A DNA stretch of 52,677 nt from a virus. Shown here piece by piece: positions 31,461-47,707 of this stretch. The number at the start of each line of letters is the position of its first letter. The stretch's first letter is position 1. Location: the IMG/VR virus record IMGVR_UViG_3300010157_000085, positions 1 to 52,677 of that record; one strand, given 5' to 3'. The notes below the pieces were generated by a model that was not told the DNA's origin, searched no databases, and saw only the letters and a program-made list of their open reading frames with translations. The position numbers were made by a program, and so were the translations under genes.

Positions 31461-32294
31461 CTACATATGTGGATACTTGAGCTTTTTAAACCGTTCCAAG
31501 CTGGTTCCTTCATATCGCCTGCACAGATAGTCAAGGCTTACAAACATTGGATCATAGCTTCCATCAATGACCTGATGTTTCACAATGATGCCACGCCAGT
31601 GCGCATTGCCCTGTGGGCCCTTGTAATCTTCATCGTGCAAGTAACATGCTCCAGCTACAAGACCATGCTGGCTCTTGCCAGCAACGAATCGCAAGCCATA
31701 CATGAGTGTCTGTTGATGACCCATGGTGAATGAGTGGCCGACTGTCTTAAGACGCGTTTCGATATTACCACCGTATGGCATCCCACTCATTGGGTTATAG
31801 AAGAAGTGGCTGTATGCCACTCCATCCAGCCAAAGGATCTCCTTAAACTTAGAGACCTTCCAACCGGTGTGAGCATACTCTAGGTCATCTGTGCTGAACA
31901 ACCCATCAATCTGAGCATCATTCTCAGTAGCTCGATTGATACGATCTTCATGGTTACCCAGTAGGATATGACGCTCTGGGTTCCAGATAGCATGCTTTGT
32001 CCTACGACGATTATCATTGTAATCATACAGTGGCTTGTTCAGTACTTCCCAAGCTGCATTAGCTGCATCGATATCAGCCCGTACTCTACGGCCTTCCATG
32101 CTGCGCTTGCCCTTGTCATACATTGATAGGCTAGGCATATCGGCATGATCACCCAGGTGAACAATCTTGATATTCTTATTGTGGTACTCGTCAACGATAT
32201 ACTGACCTACCCAGGTAAGATGATCTGTTGGAACACCATCTTTTGATTGGGTATCAGGAATAACGATGTGTACTACTGGCTCTTGCTCGGCCAC
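31461..32294 (-). CDS. Calcineurin-like metallophosphoesterase
   Basis: 277 residues with the ordered metal-binding motifs of the family: Asp14 in IPDTQ (His of the usual DxH replaced by Gln), GDH at 48-50, GNHE at 113-116, His163 in YSHFF, and two late His in VGHS (187) and GHQQ (193). These proteins cleave phosphomonoesters or phosphodiesters; DNA, RNA, cyclic nucleotides and phosphoproteins are all known substrates, so specificity cannot be read here. The start is GTG after AAAGGA at good spacing. Three bases separate it from the next gene. A nucleic-acid processing or anti-signalling role is plausible. Confidence 0.85.
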   Translation of the reverse strand: MAEQEPVVHIVIPDTQSKDGVPTDHLTWVGQYIVDEYHNKNIKIVHLGDHADMPSLSMYDKGKRSMEGRRVRADIDAANAAWEVLNKPLYDYNDNRRRTKHAIWNPERHILLGNHEDRINRATENDAQIDGLFSTDDLEYAHTGWKVSKFKEILWLDGVAYSHFFYNPMSGMPYGGNIETRLKTVGHSFTMGHQQTLMYGLRFVAGKSQHGLVAGACYLHDEDYKGPQGNAHWRGIIVKHQVIDGSYDPMFVSLDYLCRRYEGTSLERFKKLKYPHM

Positions 32295-32751: not shown

Positions 32752-32983
32752 TTTTTAATGCTATTCTACCAAGCTCTTGTAGGTATTGTTCTACTGTTAG
32801 GCCACTGCTATCTGACAACCGGCCAAGAACACCCAGCAAAACACCTGTTATGGCACTGAACAGCTCAATTGGGTCTGACTCAAGTACCATTTCATAAGCA
32901 ATCTCTTCTTGATTGCTTAGAACGGCTGTTAGTAGTGCAACAATCTTAGAAATATTTGCTGCGGTTGAATCCATCGATTTCAT
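32741..32983 (-). CDS. Small helical protein coupled to Dps gene
   Basis: 80 residues, nearly all helical by appearance (ISKIVALLTAVLSNQEEIAYEM, then AITGVLLGVLGRL). The ATG is taken at 32983 because it forms an ATGA overlap with the Dps stop codon. Earlier ATGs lie within the Dps gene. No family recognised; its tight link to the miniferritin gene suggests they are made in step, perhaps as partners. Confidence 0.7.
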   Translation of the reverse strand: MKSMDSTAANISKIVALLTAVLSNQEEIAYEMVLESDPIELFSAITGVLLGVLGRLSDSSGLTVEQYLQELGRIALKNEY

Positions 32984-33507
32984 CCTGTCGATGCCTCTAG
33001 GAACCATTGCCATTTCTGATGTGAATCAATTCTTTCAGCGATAAAGTTTGCTACACCCTGTTCATTATCAGAGTTTGCTTTATCAAACACTCGTTTTAGT
33101 TCATTAATAATAGTTTTGTTCAAACTACCAAGTGTTGCTGCTAGTGCAACAGCATTATCTGTTTTGATGTCATTATCTGGCAGTGTTGATTGCTTGAACA
33201 GCTCAGACATTCTGTATGCAGATTTTGCTCCAAGCTTACGGATGTTTTCTGCTATTGGATCAATGCTATTATATACGTCTTCAACAATCTCATCAAAGAA
33301 CTTGTGATACTGATAAAAATCAGCACCTGTTACATTCCAGTGAGCTTCATGAACAATATGATAAAAAGATGATACATCTGCTAGCAGCTGTTGTAATAAA
33401 GCTGGCAATGATGTGCTACCAGAATGTTCTGGCTGTTCTGTTTCTACCGCTCCAACAAATCTAAATTTTGTTAGGCTAGCAACATTGAGGTTATCAAGTT
33501 CTGACAT
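32980..33507 (-). CDS. Dps-family miniferritin
   Basis: 175 residues with the complete Dps ferroxidase pattern: His56 (AHWNV), His68 (YHKFFDE), Asp72, Asp83 (SIDPIAE) and Glu87, at the same spacings as in E. coli Dps (51, 63, 67, 78, 82). Dps proteins assemble into 12-subunit cages that oxidise and store iron with hydrogen peroxide and often bind DNA. The N-terminal 30 residues form a flexible tail (LNVASLTKFRF). It sits among virion-type genes, so it may protect phage DNA during infection or be packaged. No host Dps-like regulation is seen. Family assignment is very secure; its role here is inference. Confidence 0.93.
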   Translation of the reverse strand: MSELDNLNVASLTKFRFVGAVETEQPEHSGSTSLPALLQQLLADVSSFYHIVHEAHWNVTGADFYQYHKFFDEIVEDVYNSIDPIAENIRKLGAKSAYRMSELFKQSTLPDNDIKTDNAVALAATLGSLNKTIINELKRVFDKANSDNEQGVANFIAERIDSHQKWQWFLEASTG

Positions 33508-41078: not shown

Positions 41079-42563
41079 TTATTCGTAAGCAGTCCAACTG
41101 GAAAATGGTACAGGGTTCTGTAGTTCTCCAAACAGGTTTCCTATAATATCCAGGTGAGCATGCATGTGATCCCGGTGTGATTCACTAACCGGTGATCCAC
41201 GGTGGATTTCATCCCCGTGTTCATCACTGGCTCGGGTGTGCATGAGTATCAAGTTGTTTATGCCGGTGCGTACGTGCTCATTGTGCTCGGGGAATTCTGG
41301 GTGTTCGGGTTCATACAGGCTGCGATGGTCCAGAAGGCCTGTGAGGGTCTTACCGGCTCTTTGGATGCTTGCGCCCTGCCCGCAGGGGCAGTCCAGCACT
41401 CCCGCGATTTTGCTGGTTGCATATCTGGTGGCCCAACTGCTGCCCAGCTTGTCGGTACGGGCACCTGGATAGGCGGCTCTCAGCTCTTCATCTGTAGGGG
41501 TTCTCATGGCCCGGTCCAGAAACTCTCGGTGTTCCGGACTGCGAACTCCTTCTTCACCCAAGAGCACTCGTGCACCTTCACTGTGTTCGTTGGGCCAGTC
41601 ATATTCATCTTGTACCAGTGGTGATAGTCGAGACCAGGCTTCGTTCCTGGTCCGATCGCATTCCTGGTGATTACTGTGACGATCCGGCACGGCATTCTCA
41701 TTGGGTTTCAGGCAGATGTTACAAATGCTCGGCACCTTGCCAGCAATTTCGCTTTCATCTCGCAGTTTTGCACCCTGTTGATCAAGACTTGCTTGTTCTC
41801 TGGGGGTGGGTAACATGTTACTGGGATCTTCCATGTTCTTCTTGAGTGTGTCACGAATAAAACCGACCATATCTCGTGCCTGCTCTTCGGCACTCTTGGG
41901 TTTTGGACGATCCTCCGGATGCTCTTTATAGTGACGCTCAAGTTCAGCACGAACGTCGTGTTCATGGCAGGCTGGATTGCCGAGTGCGTCTTTGCCGCTA
42001 GCCTGATTGCCACAACCACAAACCTCACCGGTAGGAGATCTGTACTCGGGCCGTCCTGGTACGTAGGGGTACCAGCTCGGGTGCATTGCGTCTACTTCGG
42101 GATCTTCGGGATCTTTGGGGTCTTCACTGGCGGTCTTGCTGCCGAGATAGGTTGGCTTGTAGCCGTGCTGGATCTTGGCCGTTTCAAACTCTGTTGGAGT
42201 GAGAAAATGGTAGGCATCCAGGCTGTCATTATGGCTGTAACCACTAGTAAGACCATTTAGAGCTCGCATGTGATCGCTCATGCTGTTCTCGTTAGGATGG
42301 GTACGGTTGTGGATGCCTCGCAGTATCTGTCCCAGCTGATTCAGCATCTCAGGGTTGTTTGCAAACTGCTTGCCCAGCTGCTCGGCACGACGAGCTATCG
42401 CATCCATACCGGGATTAATACTACTAAAATCGCTAGCGATTTCTTCTGTAAGAGGTTTTGATCGTTCCAGATTCTGCTCCAGGCCATCCCCATCACCCGA
42501 CAGGTTGAAGTTTATTTCTGGACTGGCAGTCTTACGCGACCACATATCTGGTATCCAACCCAT
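41079..42563 (-). CDS. Large late Cys-rich protein with SRKTA tag
   Basis: 494 residues, unrecognised. It starts GWIPDMWSRKTASPEIN, a variant of the late-protein tag, and has a second copy LGSKTASEDP near residue 146. Cys groups: CGCG with a later C/H pair (about 182-199), CNIC with HQEC (about 282-304) and CPCG (about 389). A WxxRYATSK motif appears just before the last one. Mostly soluble and helical with long acidic and His-rich linkers. The ribosome site is AAAGGA. It looks slightly more GC-rich than the adjacent genes. Confidence 0.78.
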   Translation of the reverse strand: MGWIPDMWSRKTASPEINFNLSGDGDGLEQNLERSKPLTEEIASDFSSINPGMDAIARRAEQLGKQFANNPEMLNQLGQILRGIHNRTHPNENSMSDHMRALNGLTSGYSHNDSLDAYHFLTPTEFETAKIQHGYKPTYLGSKTASEDPKDPEDPEVDAMHPSWYPYVPGRPEYRSPTGEVCGCGNQASGKDALGNPACHEHDVRAELERHYKEHPEDRPKPKSAEEQARDMVGFIRDTLKKNMEDPSNMLPTPREQASLDQQGAKLRDESEIAGKVPSICNICLKPNENAVPDRHSNHQECDRTRNEAWSRLSPLVQDEYDWPNEHSEGARVLLGEEGVRSPEHREFLDRAMRTPTDEELRAAYPGARTDKLGSSWATRYATSKIAGVLDCPCGQGASIQRAGKTLTGLLDHRSLYEPEHPEFPEHNEHVRTGINNLILMHTRASDEHGDEIHRGSPVSESHRDHMHAHLDIIGNLFGELQNPVPFSSWTAYE

Positions 42564-42574
42564 ATTAGTTCCTT

Positions 42575-42721
42575 TTATTTATTTGCGTGTTGCTTGCAAC
42601 TAGGCTCGTCAATGCCATCCCGGTGTTCATTGCAGCCTTTTACGTTGCATTTTCCATACTGTTCATACATGTTAACGTCAGGGCGTTTACTGGCAATTCT
42701 AAAAAAATTCTCATATTGCAT
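42575..42721 (-). CDS. Small 48-residue zinc-knuckle protein, first gene of the late block
   Basis: A short frame with a strong AAGGAACAC ribosome site. Its product begins MQYENFFRIASKRPDV and contains CNVKGC followed by EH and CKQH, arranged C-x4-C-x11-C-x2-H, the style of small zinc-binding fingers. Composition and start are fully gene-like. It opens the minus-strand block; TCTAGTGCAGT lies 32 bases upstream. A regulatory or nucleic-acid-binding role is inferred. Confidence 0.75.
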   Translation of the reverse strand: MQYENFFRIASKRPDVNMYEQYGKCNVKGCNEHRDGIDEPSCKQHANK

Positions 42722-43300
42722 AAGTGTTCCTTAGAGACTTGTACTAACAACCTCTAGTGCAGTCTACTAGAACCTTTAAAACCCCAGGGTTTCAGAAAAT
42801 GACCAGCCCCCTGGCCCCGTTTTTTTAAAGAGCGGCTTTTCCACAGCAATGGGTCCCCTTTACGGTTAAAAACAGCTGACATCAGGCCGTTTAATGTGAG
42901 ACAGGTTTAACCGTATCGCCCCCCTCGTAAAAACCCAGTAGTTCAGAAAGTGCCAGGGCCTGTCTGCCGTTTTTACGCCTTAGATGAGGCCGTGCAGGCC
43001 ACTCGTTTGTAGATTATGAACTTGTGGCAGAGTCTGCGTGGCTTCTCTGGGCTCGGTAGCGGAAGTTACCGGCTCAGCAGCACAACGGGCTAGCAAAGTC
43101 AGGAGTGCAGCAGCACAGGCGTGTGCGGCAAAGTGAGTACCACGGGCCAGCAGCTCGCGAATGCTCACGGACACTCGCACGCCGGTTGTTTCTTGTGTGT
43201 TGTGCAGAGGTACAGCACGCAAGCAACTCGATGCTTGATGGAGTGGTTGGTCAAGCAAAACATCGGGTCCTACAACTCAGCCACAGAATGAGGTAGTGCA
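42722..43300. other. Divergent gene-free region with three inverted-repeat units
   Basis: No convincing gene is found between the two divergent blocks. The left half holds three successive units, each closed by perfect inverted arms: CTTTAAAA/TTTTAAAG (42774-42830), TACGGTTAAA/TTTAACCGTA (42861-42915) and CGTAAAAAC/GTTTTTACG (42926-42977). The first and third share internal similarity (ACCCAG, TTCAGAAA, TG-CCAG). The right half is GC-rich with no clear element. Such a divergent, structured region is a candidate for the main promoters and possibly a replication origin, but no initiator site is identified. Confidence 0.5.
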
Positions 43301-43549
43301 ATGCAAAGGATTGCCGTACGCACTCAAAGCGGTGCTGTTTATGTCATCGACCGAGAGAAGAAGTTGTTCGCTAGGACTGAACACATCCCAGGCACGACGA
43401 AGTACAAGTTCGACTCCTGGTACCGCTACCACAACGATGTGCAGATCAGGATTGGCCAATGGTTGCTGTTCACCTCAGAACCCAACGAGAACGGTGTGGT
43501 TGAGCTGCTCGCACGATCAACCCCGGTTGTTCGAGTGAAAGCAATCTAG
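43301..43549 (+). CDS. Small early protein, unrecognised
   Basis: 82 residues, basic and beta-rich (VRTQSGAVYVIDREKKLF; VQIRIGQWLLF). GAGGT lies upstream at normal spacing. It is the first gene of the right-hand block. A second frame in the same stretch was rejected because it is Ser/Arg-rich and not protein-like. No family recognised; it could be an early host-modifying protein. Confidence 0.7.
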   Translation: MQRIAVRTQSGAVYVIDREKKLFARTEHIPGTTKYKFDSWYRYHNDVQIRIGQWLLFTSEPNENGVVELLARSTPVVRVKAI

Positions 43550-43554
43550 CTCAA

Positions 43555-43582
43555 GCATCACTCACTCTACGGAGTGGGTGGT
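43555..43582 (+). repeat. 28-bp repeated hairpin, copy 1 (UACG tetraloop)
   Basis: The element folds as ATCACTCACTC-TACG-GAGTGGGTGGT, an 11-bp stem with two G-U pairs closed by a C(UACG)G loop, one of the most stable RNA tetraloops. An identical 28-bp copy lies at 43858-43885. It sits between two early genes, before a strong ribosome site. There is no U-run, so a stabilising or processing role is more likely than termination. Confidence 0.75.
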
Positions 43583-43610
43583 ATCTACGCCTTGAAAGGA
43601 GGTGATAACA

Positions 43611-43844
43611 ATGGCAAGCAGACACGACGAAGTCACCACGATGCCCAACCTCACGTTGAGACAGTGGGAGCACATCAAGATAGCTTTGTTGGAACGCTAC
43701 ATGCGTCTGTCCAATGAAGCTCGTGAGGCGGAGCAACCCCGTAAAAAGGAGATGCTCAAAAAGATGAGCGATGACTGCATGGAGATCCGTGCGATCATTC
43801 GCCCAGTAATCGATGAGCTCGAGGAACAAATATTCTGGGGTTAA
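43611..43844 (+). CDS. Small helical early protein
   Basis: 77 residues, highly charged and helical (LRQWEHIKIALLERYMRL; EMLKKMSDDCMEIRAIIR). It starts at the ATG after GAAAGGAGGTGAT (43594-43606), 13 bases that exactly match the complement of the usual Gram-positive 16S 3' end, implying very high translation. A GTG three codons earlier lies inside that site. No family recognised. Confidence 0.78.
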   Translation: MASRHDEVTTMPNLTLRQWEHIKIALLERYMRLSNEAREAEQPRKKEMLKKMSDDCMEIRAIIRPVIDELEEQIFWG

Positions 43845-43857
43845 CTCACTCCAGCTG

Positions 43858-43885
43858 GCATCACTCACTCTACGGAGTGGGTGGT
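43858..43885 (+). repeat. 28-bp repeated hairpin, copy 2 (UACG tetraloop)
   Basis: Identical to 43555-43582. Its 3' arm overlaps by three bases the next hairpin (43883-43934), so the two structures compete; this is a possible switch in the leader of the following gene. Confidence 0.75.
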
Positions 43886-43949
43886 GTAGGGGTCACAGGC
43901 TAACTCCCCCCCCAAGGTCTGTGGCTCCTACACCATCCACACTGGATGG
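43883..43949 (+). promoter_or_regulatory. Stacked hairpin leader before early gene
   Basis: GGTGTAGG (43883-43890) pairs with CCTACACC (43927-43934), with an inner CACAG/CTGTG extension, and CCATCC/GGATGG (43933-43949) forms a second hairpin overlapping it by two bases. Together with the UACG hairpin this makes a 90-base structured leader that ends just before a perfect GAAAGGAGGTGA site (43962-43973). It may tune translation or protect the RNA. Confidence 0.55.
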
Positions 43950-44867: not shown

Positions 44868-45089
44868 ATGGGCTCAGTCCGTGGTCAGTCATGTGCGTAT
44901 AGCACACAGTTCTCCCTACTCATTGAAGAGCTGGGAGTTGCAGCAACCGAATGCTGGGAAGCATGCGGTGCAGTACCGCCACACTTGTGGCATTGGCGCA
45001 TCAGCAGTCTGATGCACGATCAGGAGTCATACATTGACGAACGGTCAGCCTACGGGCACCCAGAACGGAAGCACGATTGCTTCCACTGA
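44868..45089 (+). CDS. Small Cys/Trp-containing protein, uncertain
   Basis: A 73-residue frame that would fill an otherwise empty 180-base gap. It has a plausible helical core (FSLLIEELGVAATECWEACG) but a weak ribosome site, and it overlaps the next gene's TTG start by 56 bases. The content is protein-like; translation is uncertain. Confidence 0.4.
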   Translation: MGSVRGQSCAYSTQFSLLIEELGVAATECWEACGAVPPHLWHWRISSLMHDQESYIDERSAYGHPERKHDCFH

Positions 45090-45882
45090 CTCGGCAGCCA
45101 CCGAGAACAACACCGCAGCTGAGGCTATGATTGCAGATGCAATCGCAGCAGCGACGTGGGTCCGTGAGCACCTCGGAGAGATGCCACGCTCAGTCAGAGT
45201 CAGCCGTGTGCCGATTGACACAGTTGAGCTCTTTGCCACAGCAGGCATTGACTTCAACCGGGTGCTCCGCGACAGCATCAGTGCTGTCAACGGTATCGCA
45301 GTCGGTGAGGTGTACGAGCTGATCGACCACGATCTGCTGTCGTACTCACGGTCAGTTGCAGAACGCATGACTCGTGTCAAGCAGCTGCCAGCCGATGCGA
45401 CTGTGGGTGCGAGCTTCGCATACCGCAAGTCGTACCTCAAGCAGCGTCAGCTTGTCAAGGTTGTTGACAGCCTGCAGACCAACTCCAAGGGCGATCAGTA
45501 CTACGTGGTCCACACGGGTACTCTCGACCCAGAGCGTCCGCTTGACGAGCCAGTCTGGCGTACCCAAGAGATGGTTGCCAAGCAGGCTGTTGAGATGCGT
45601 CTCTACCTGCTTGAGACCCCCAAGGGTACTGCACTCTGGCGCTGGCACAACGGCAACAAGCAACCAGTTGGTCTGGGCAGCAGCAAGGTGTTTGCTGACA
45701 AGATCATGGACTGCCTGGAGAGCGAGCAGTACAAGCAGCTGCAACTGCTCGGTGCCAGCAGCCCTGAGCTCAAGGAAGACGACATCTGTCGCTTCCACGA
45801 GGGTCAGCTTGTGTTCTGGAAGGCTACCCACCTTGCAGTGCATGCAACGCAGGCTCTCAAGCCAGCACCATCAGCTAGCTAA
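45034..45882 (+). CDS. Early protein with TTG start, unrecognised
   Basis: 282 residues. The start is TTG preceded by CAGGAG at ideal spacing; the first ATG downstream would remove 31 residues of Ser/Thr/Asn-rich leader. The body is alpha/beta with a basic middle (SYLKQRQLVKVVDSL) and Trp-rich patch (GTALWRWHNGNKQP). It is the longest early gene here and looks GC-rich relative to the late genes. No family recognised. Confidence 0.77.
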   Translation: MTNGQPTGTQNGSTIASTDSAATENNTAAEAMIADAIAAATWVREHLGEMPRSVRVSRVPIDTVELFATAGIDFNRVLRDSISAVNGIAVGEVYELIDHDLLSYSRSVAERMTRVKQLPADATVGASFAYRKSYLKQRQLVKVVDSLQTNSKGDQYYVVHTGTLDPERPLDEPVWRTQEMVAKQAVEMRLYLLETPKGTALWRWHNGNKQPVGLGSSKVFADKIMDCLESEQYKQLQLLGASSPELKEDDICRFHEGQLVFWKATHLAVHATQALKPAPSAS

Positions 45883-46563: not shown

Positions 46564-46755
46564 ATGAAACCAATTAAGTTAGTTTGTAGATACTGTCACA
46601 AACAGATAGAGAATGACGTGGACGTACCACTCCTGTGGACTCATACTGCCACCAGTGATCCATTCTGTGGTAAAGATAACTTATCTACATTCCACCTGGC
46701 AGACTACCAGGGCACACTTAGCTACGAACAGATCATTGAAAGGATGAGCCGATGA
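46564..46755 (+). CDS. Small 63-residue zinc-knuckle protein
   Basis: Begins MKPIKLVCRYCHKQIEN, followed by LLWTHTATSDPFCG, giving C-x2-C...H...C. It lies three bases after the previous small Cys protein and overlaps the next gene by ATGA. No strong ribosome site of its own, so it is probably coupled. Related in layout to its upstream neighbour. Function unknown. Confidence 0.75.
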   Translation: MKPIKLVCRYCHKQIENDVDVPLLWTHTATSDPFCGKDNLSTFHLADYQGTLSYEQIIERMSR

Positions 46756-46985
46756 ATGTTTCACGTGAAACAATTGAAGGCCAGATAACAATCTGTAACC
46801 TGCTGGTTAACCAGATCGCAGGCATGTTCATACCCCTGCGAGAGACCTGTGAGAAACACACCTCAGAGTGGTGGGAGTATCAGGAGATGATTGATCGCAA
46901 CATGAAGATGATTCGAAAGTGTCAGGAATCTATCAAACATCTACAGGAAAATGTTTCACGTGAAACATCGGAGCCTGCGGATTAA
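46752..46985 (+). CDS. Small helical protein whose ends carry two parS sites
   Basis: 77 residues. The protein begins MNVSRETIEGQ and ends ENVSRETSEPAD; both NVSRET hexapeptides are what a parS palindrome encodes in this frame. The middle is helical and charged with five Cys or Met positions (FIPLRETCEKHTSEWWEYQEM). The start overlaps the upstream stop (ATGA), so it is likely translated, but selection on the DNA sites may be stronger than on the protein. It may be an ordinary gene used as a carrier. No family recognised. Confidence 0.7.
   Translation: MNVSRETIEGQITICNLLVNQIAGMFIPLRETCEKHTSEWWEYQEMIDRNMKMIRKCQESIKHLQENVSRETSEPAD
46757..46772. promoter_or_regulatory. parS-type ParB-binding site 1 (exact consensus)
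   Basis: TGTTTCACGTGAAACA is a 16-bp perfect palindrome identical to the consensus bacterial chromosomal parS site. ParB (Spo0J) binds it, loads as a CTP-dependent clamp and spreads. It lies 2 bases into the codons after ATG of a small gene. An identical copy lies 195 bp downstream. No parA or parB gene is visible in the window. Confidence 0.88.
46952..46967. promoter_or_regulatory. parS-type ParB-binding site 2 (exact consensus)
   Basis: TGTTTCACGTGAAACA again, identical at all 16 positions to the first site and in the same reading frame of the same gene, 18 bases before its stop. Two exact copies in 211 bp cannot be expected by chance and make accidental coding similarity unlikely. Confidence 0.88.
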
Positions 46986-47173
46986 GTTAATCGGGTCCTT
47001 GTTTATTACACAAACAAGTCCAAGGTTCTGGCTAGCTGTTATAAGTTAGCCTCATATATGTCTAGTGATTAACTATCACTGGATGCAACAAGGATCTAAC
47101 TGCAAGATGCGGTTGGATCATTGACCCCTGTGGATCGTCCACTCGGTCATCACTCAAACCCCTGGAGGTTATC
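46986..47173 (+). other. Hairpin-rich non-coding stretch next to parS sites
   Basis: No gene is seen in these 188 bases. There are three clear stems: CTTGTTT/AAACAAG (46998-47018), GGCTA/TAGCC with inner pairs (47030-47051) and AGTGAT/ATCACT (47064-47080), and a weaker GGATCTAAC region after them. Such a run may be RNA structure, a replication or packaging signal, or part of a partition centromere. It ends with the GGAGG site of the next gene. Confidence 0.5.
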
Positions 47174-47707
47174 GTGAGTGCTAGTAAGCGTAGTACCTGG
47201 AGCAGCAACGCTAGTTCCAATTCACAACAGGTTGAGATCCCCGTGTGGAATCTCATGGCTGACTGCTGGTCAGGTTATACCGCGCATGCTCTTGAGTATG
47301 TTCGTGCCGGTCGACCTGTTCACTACGGTCAGGGTCGTATCCATATCCACTGGGGTATCTTGTGGGCTTCCCGCCCAAGTTTATTCCAGCTGGAGGTAGT
47401 CACCAGTGCTCGTGGATCCAATGACTGGACTCCTGGCAGATTCAACTTTGCCAGTGTTGATAGCTGTCCGCCACTGGATGAGCTTGGCATCGTTCAGCAG
47501 CAAAAGATAGTCACTGGTCTCGTGGAACTGTACACCCTGCAGTGGGATCTTATCGATGAAAGCACTGAGAGTGGTGAGTGGGTTGCTGACACTCATGCTC
47601 TGCGCGATGGCACCAGTGAGCGTCGTGAGTGTCCCGCGCACAAGATCACTCGCTCTCTTGCTCACCTGTTCGAGACCAACAAGCTTGACAGGCAGGTACT
47701 CTCATGA
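47174..47707 (+). CDS. Early protein with GTG start, unrecognised
   Basis: 177 residues from a GTG preceded by GGAGG at good spacing. Ser-rich start, then an aromatic/His-rich region (VHYGQGRIHIHWGILWASRP) and a helical C-terminus. Mixed fold, no Cys pair pattern. The stop overlaps the next start (ATGA). First gene after the hairpin-rich stretch. Family unknown. Confidence 0.77.
   Translation: MSASKRSTWSSNASSNSQQVEIPVWNLMADCWSGYTAHALEYVRAGRPVHYGQGRIHIHWGILWASRPSLFQLEVVTSARGSNDWTPGRFNFASVDSCPPLDELGIVQQQKIVTGLVELYTLQWDLIDESTESGEWVADTHALRDGTSERRECPAHKITRSLAHLFETNKLDRQVLS

Follow-up and report, generated by a model that had tools for sequence, protein, structure and literature searches.

The parS sites and their surroundings

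The window, that is, the whole stretch of DNA analysed here, is a virus record of 52.7 kb (IMGVR_UViG_3300010157_000085, positions 1 to 52,677). It contains two copies of TGTTTCACGTGAAACA, the exact 16-bp parS palindrome, located at the two ends of a small open reading frame (ORF). The features of the locus are:

41079 to 43946, no strand: strand switch between a leftward structural block and a rightward small-gene block (ORF map, synteny)
44868 to 45882, plus strand: syntenic anchor genes on the left side of the parS sites (protein-level synteny table)
46564 to 46755, plus strand: 63-aa ORF, sharing ATGA with the start of the 77-aa ORF
46752 to 46985, plus strand: 77-aa ORF bracketed by both parS sites, with an ATG start and a coiled-coil-like interior
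46757 to 46772, no strand: parS site 1, TGTTTCACGTGAAACA, at the 5' end of the 77-aa ORF; kept with its flanks in the relatives G029 and G002
46952 to 46967, no strand: parS site 2, exact, at the 3' end of the 77-aa ORF; kept with its flanks in G029 and G002
47174 to 47707, plus strand: right syntenic anchor gene (50% identity in G029, 53% in G002)

A reading of this DNA from its sequence alone had reported two exact parS sites at the ends of a 77-codon gene, and our search of the window confirmed both positions. Under a first-order Markov model, 1.9e-5 exact sites are expected by chance in the window. No further copy was found in it at up to three mismatches; four relatives have two to four exact sites each. 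Site 1 occupies codons 3 to 7 and the third base of codon 2, and site 2 codons 68 to 72 and the third base of codon 67, with the stop five codons further on. Both sites are translated as NVSRET, as the sequence-only reading had it, although the shared frame is less telling than it had seemed because parS carries a TGA stop in one frame and leaves only two frames per strand open (VSRET or FHVK). With the codon usage of the window phage, NVSRET is spelled exactly as parS with a probability of about 3e-3 per site, so the parS spelling is not dictated by the peptide.

The ATGA overlap with the preceding 63-aa ORF makes the 77-aa ORF a credible gene, and the two ORFs are likely to be translationally coupled. 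Profile matches of the 77-aa ORF are of the coiled-coil type, weak and all sub-threshold. Pattern scans of viral_contigs detected no relatives of the 77-aa protein and no homologues of a 177-aa protein, and the neighbouring 70-aa ORF of G002, which we compared with the 77-aa protein, shows no homology to it. The parS sites are located in the rightward block, which consists of small, fast-changing genes, about 4 kb from the strand switch; the cumulative GC skew has its minimum at 39.8 kb, directly left of the switch. Promoter, terminator and Rfam scans around the sites returned nothing telling. RNA hairpins are predicted 3' of the 77-aa ORF (46985-47050, z = -2.9 for the stretch), one of which, with CTTGTTTATTACACAAACAAG, has a similar counterpart at the corresponding position in G002. 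Two genes that the family conserves, for a Ferritin/Dps-like protein and a metallophosphoesterase, lie within the leftward block (32980-33507 and 31461-32294).

The phage and its relatives

Judged by its structural proteins, the window phage is a relative of the lytic Ceeclamvirinae (Bxz1/Myrna-like) actinophages. Its portal protein (41% identity over 74%) and major capsid protein (64% identity over 96%) match those of Ceeclamvirinae and related actinophages, including Myrna, Bxz1-like Bixzunavirus, Rhodococcus E3 and Gordonia Skog, Pupper and Stormageddon. The tail sheath and baseplate are encoded in the relative G011 (132 kb), together with its own DnaB-type helicase, primase, helicase loader and RecA/UvsX. 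No similarity to cultured phages was found at the DNA level, and the window capsid, sought in genome_contigs as a lead toward the host, had no match there. A search with the portal protein gathered 77 related IMG/VR loci, many of them presumably from humic or other freshwater lakes, judging by the IMG sample numbers; on the same basis the window phage is taken to be a freshwater lake virus. Two of the related records, G029 and G031, overlap at 100% identity, by 53.6 kb at one end and 9.4 kb at the other, and so join into a circularly permuted genome that closes at about 136 kb.

Conservation of the sites

Among 50 related records, exact parS was detected in four relatives besides the window: G029 (four sites), G002 (three), G017 (three) and G043 (two). 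Five distinct phages of one family thus carry 14 exact sites (two to four each), against 1.5e-4 expected. The clusters of all five are in one syntenic region, right of the strand switch (protein synteny table), and those of G029 and G002 lie between anchors that match window positions 44868 and 47174 (left anchor, 44868-45089: 87% identity in G029, 79% in G002). One site with a single mismatch, adjoined by a second degraded site, is found in G010/G011; apart from these, no relics with one or two mismatches were detected in the 15 relatives covered fully or almost fully. In nearly every relative with good coverage, parS is either exact or missing altogether.

Most records without parS do not have the region itself (G031, G001, G004, G007 and G008), and in G005 and G019 the contigs may break off at this point, whereas G023 has no parS although the record spans the region. 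Among cultured phages, no parS within two mismatches was found in Myrna, Sebata, Phabba, Tonenili, Skog, Pupper, Phrappuccino, E3 or Stormageddon. Since most cultured relatives examined and some family members are without exact parS, the sites are an optional gain and not essential for the lifestyle.

In a DNA alignment of the window, G029 and G002, both sites and the letters preceding them agree fully, but the gene that they enclose has been exchanged: a 77-aa coiled-coil-like peptide is encoded in the window and a short Cys-rich peptide in the two relatives. Genes surrounding the sites also vary among family members while parS stays, and at either G043 site and at two of the three G017 sites no ORF of at least 45 aa was found. 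That several sites are intergenic argues that the DNA, and not a peptide, is selected. Selection on the sites as DNA, independent of coding, is therefore supported by these comparisons, as the sequence-only reading had proposed: the sites are, with few exceptions, exact or absent, keep the same syntenic place and outlast the gene interiors. Its further suggestion that the gene serves to carry the sites is not supported, as most sites in G017 and G043 lie between genes and, its parS-encoded ends aside, the 77-aa gene has no counterpart in these phages or the other relatives.

The same data bear on the idea that the sites are a side effect of the NVSRET peptide, of an RNA hairpin at gene starts and ends, or of chance. 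The parS palindrome can indeed fold as an RNA hairpin, but an RNA stem would allow compensatory change, and the parS letters hardly vary; given that they do not covary, a palindromic RNA structure is an unlikely cause. Most G017 sites and both G043 sites are outside any sizeable ORF, which speaks against the peptide, and chance predicts a minute fraction of one site where 14 were observed. This reading is scarcely credible and already largely refuted.

The variable neighbourhood also bears on a role as a local switch, in which spreading host ParB would silence, insulate or time the nearby small early genes, or tie the phage programme to the host cell cycle. The cluster is within the rightward block of small variable genes beside the strand switch, site 1 overlaps a gene start, and the Pseudomonas aeruginosa ParB is reported to repress promoters near parS (PMC5521831). 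However, the sites persist next to different genes in different phages, so there is no constant target for local regulation, and we consider this role improbable.

Two further observations concern the sequence around the sites. The parS pair brackets different small genes in the window (46752-46985) and in G029 and G002, resembling recombination ends for the swapping of ORFs. A DnaA-box pair, TTGTCCACA plus an exact TTATCCACA, is directly beside the outermost parS in G029 (L212:7679-7698) and G002 (L215:4316-4335) only; its absence beside parS in the window, G017 and G043 led us to reject DnaA boxes as the mark of an oriC mimic.

Candidate readers of the sites

No parB (ParB_N, PF02195) over the cut-off was detected in 19 family records, including the closed genome of about 136 kb (G029 and G031), and the same records had no match to parA (ParA-type AAA_31, PF13614) or to the tyrosine Phage_integrase (PF00589). 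The ParB_N and ParA profile searches did give matches in control genomes. With neither parB nor parA, the family shows no complete ParABS system; parS without parAB is the configuration of hijacking elements of the phi29 or SGI1 type. As far as PF00589 and ParAB are concerned, these records also show no marks of a temperate phage or phage-plasmid. A phage-plasmid stage with ParA and ParB elsewhere in the genome, one of the meanings first considered, was rejected on these grounds.

Two proteins of the family were considered as readers of parS. G029 encodes a 139-aa single-domain protein of the ParB/sulfiredoxin fold (L211:1417-1836, at about 73.7 kb), and G045 a 634-aa protein with a ParB/sulfiredoxin-like stretch (L210:439-2343). 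Both are below the Pfam cut-off and were ruled out by size or architecture. An unrecognised ParB-like reader, encoded by the phage or by a helper element, would make the sites part of a complete phage partition or operator system. The sub-threshold 139-aa protein is only about 8 kb from the parS cluster of G029, and many family proteins have no known function; 139 aa would, however, leave no room for a parS-reading helix-turn-helix domain as well. Moreover, the exact host consensus is common to unrelated phages of Firmicutes, Actinobacteria and Alphaproteobacteria, and only host ParB is common to all of these. We regard an own reader as very improbable.

The phage has the exact host consensus but no reader of its own, which makes host ParB the likely reader. 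Recruitment of host ParB, another of the meanings first put forward, is the best reading of the 19 records with their closed genome, and it is most likely that the virus borrows the chromosome-sorting machinery of its host. The property under selection is very probably the binding of host ParB.

parS in other phages

Few DNA addresses in bacteria are as conserved as the ParB-parS pair. In IMG/VR, parS was detected in at least 120 contigs, compared with five in the whole collection for a control palindrome of equal composition and with the same CACGTG centre. ParB_N over the cut-off is missing in 48 of the 50 parS-bearing contigs examined, most of which are fragments, so that each absence is weak evidence singly. 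In INPHARED, a parS probe (an 18-mer, with 16-18 exact bases accepted) had matches in 315 of 50,697 records, whereas the control probe had no match; the records are redundant, and 315 is thus not a number of independent gains.

Hosts of the parS-bearing INPHARED phages include Listeria, Microbacterium, Arthrobacter, Gordonia, Lactobacillus, Bacillus, Ruegeria and Butyrivibrio. Phages of Escherichia, Salmonella and Klebsiella, hosts that have no chromosomal ParABS, were found neither in the ten most frequent names nor among the INPHARED matches listed. Among those listed (H101-H220) are Microviridae, Spiroplasma phage 4, Listeria Pecentumvirus and Lactobacillus Herelleviridae, as well as phi29-like Bacillus, Gordonia, Microbacterium and Arthrobacter phages.

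The statement that no lytic phage was known with host-type parS inside a gene is overtaken by these matches, which include lytic Herelleviridae and sites inside or overlapping a gene. The use of the host ParB Spo0J by the virulent phage phi29 is, moreover, already published (Meijer et al. 2005, cited in PMC9437464), so the principle that a virulent phage uses ParB is not new.

ParB_N over the cut-off is missing in 13 of 14 parS-bearing isolates checked. Exact sites number four in Bacillus vB_BcoS-136, three each in DSS3P8, Bromius and Arian, and two each in Woes and PatrickStar; some cultured phages carry a single one. This suggests a general class of parS phages with cultured, testable members, such as Rhodococcus Finch, Gordonia Woes, Lactobacillus Bromius and Roseobacter DSS3P8.

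A second, large family, with terminase and portal unrelated to those of the window family (phrog_38, phrog_1216), has exact parS at 36 of 78 terL loci and two or more sites at 30 of the 78, with a maximum of five. Its arrays occupy the same place, within about 1.5 kb upstream of terL. Because terminase and portal are unrelated, the two families keep parS arrays independently. The second-family loci (terL phrog_38: L306-L383, L018, L045 and L054) have an array region rich in GGTACC and G-run repeats. A shared motif around the arrays was sought and rejected: the top k-mers of the second family are GGTACC- or G-run-rich, and the GTTAGC-type words present there are not enriched near parS of the first.

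Whether capture of the host centromere is a common, repeatedly evolved strategy of virulent phages of Actinobacteria, Firmicutes and Alphaproteobacteria, with the sites in the phages studied here also serving as fixed ends for small-gene swapping, is in our estimation evenly balanced. If so, exact parS arrays without ParAB would put host ParB, ParA and condensin on the DNA of unrelated phages, and phages that do not integrate would gain a host-run partition or genome-folding system outside sporulation. Given the conservation of ParB-parS, host-type sites on hundreds of phage records would imply that phages routinely plug into the segregation and condensin machinery.

Possible function of the sites

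Once loaded at parS as a CTP clamp, chromosomal ParB spreads; ParA uses ParB for positioning, and SMC uses it for folding. These roles are treated in PMC8367383 and PMC7022226, and in P. aeruginosa one parS is reported to be enough for the chromosome to segregate (PMC4368675).

We consider it rather probable that the parS pair is a captured centromere, a cluster of host-ParB binding sites in a virulent actinophage without its own ParAB. After infection, host ParB would nucleate on the phage pair and spread as a CTP clamp across the adjoining phage DNA, where it would bring in host ParA for positioning and segregation and host SMC condensin for loading and folding. The most plausible gain would be that phage genomes are positioned and split between daughter cells during slow or delayed lysis, comparable to phi29 and Spo0J in sporulating Bacillus. 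Speculatively, in a presumed non-spore-forming, slow host the corresponding benefit would be this sharing of genomes or the folding and positioning of replicating phage DNA. We infer all three steps, namely that host ParB binds the sites, that it acts on the phage DNA and that this confers an advantage.

The same sequence evidence also speaks for a decoy, in which multiplying phage genomes titrate host ParB, and with it SMC loading, off the chromosomal origin and halt segregation and division during takeover. Two to five sites on many genome copies would exceed the number of chromosomal sites, and the parS sites of SGI1 both stabilise SGI1 and expel its helper plasmid, so the two effects can coexist (PMC10954446). 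Yet a titrator needs no packing of its sites into 0.05-1.5 kb at a fixed place, which both families keep, and single-site cultured phages exist, in which one site would be too few to outcompete the chromosome early. Sites that are clustered at one locus, not scattered, are better explained by a nucleation centre than by titration alone, and a decoy seems to us possible but unlikely.

As a captured centromere, the sites would offer a possible route to long-lived infection without integration; the phi29 case has so far been treated as part of sporulation. In a literature search without most subscription papers and preprints, we found no description of virulent actinophages that have no ParAB yet conserve a cluster of exact parS sites, nor, within the same limits, of the recurrence of such clusters in unrelated lineages or of the strength of the general enrichment.

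Comparison with known systems

Chromosomal parS clusters near oriC have the identical 16-bp sequence and are likewise clustered, but the window sites are on a virus genome, with no parAB and no consistent DnaA boxes. Rhodococcus phage Finch (MG962366) is a cultured relative whose major capsid is 63% identical and which has no ParB_N match; unlike the window phage, Finch has a single exact parS (97852-97867) and no cluster. This site is at the end of gene 150, ahead of gene 151.

Extrachromosomal cluster A mycobacteriophages of the RedRock type are also actinophages with centromere-like sites, but they are temperate and encode their own ParA and ParB, and they have an array of 8-bp direct repeats as parS (PMC7157519). 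None of these features was found in the window family. Like the window phage, SGI1 is a mobile element with no parAB; it has two 'stolen' parS sites that bind the IncC ParB and stabilise SGI1 through the partition proteins of another replicon. It differs from the window phage as an integrative element that relies on a plasmid and not a chromosomal system, and on another parS sequence (PMC10954446).

Another parallel is phi29, whose DNA is taken into the spore by host Spo0J (Meijer et al. 2005, according to PMC9437464). Like the window phage, phi29 is virulent and without its own ParABS, and it exploits the segregation ParB of its host, as is proposed for the window phage. In the phi29-like B103, one parS is exact and another has a single mismatch; B103 shares with the window phage the presence of host-type parS in its genome, also within coding sequence. 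In contrast to phi29, a small podovirus of a spore former that gains entry into the spore, the window phage is a myovirus of about 136 kb with a presumed non-spore-forming actinobacterial host and a tight cluster of exact sites.
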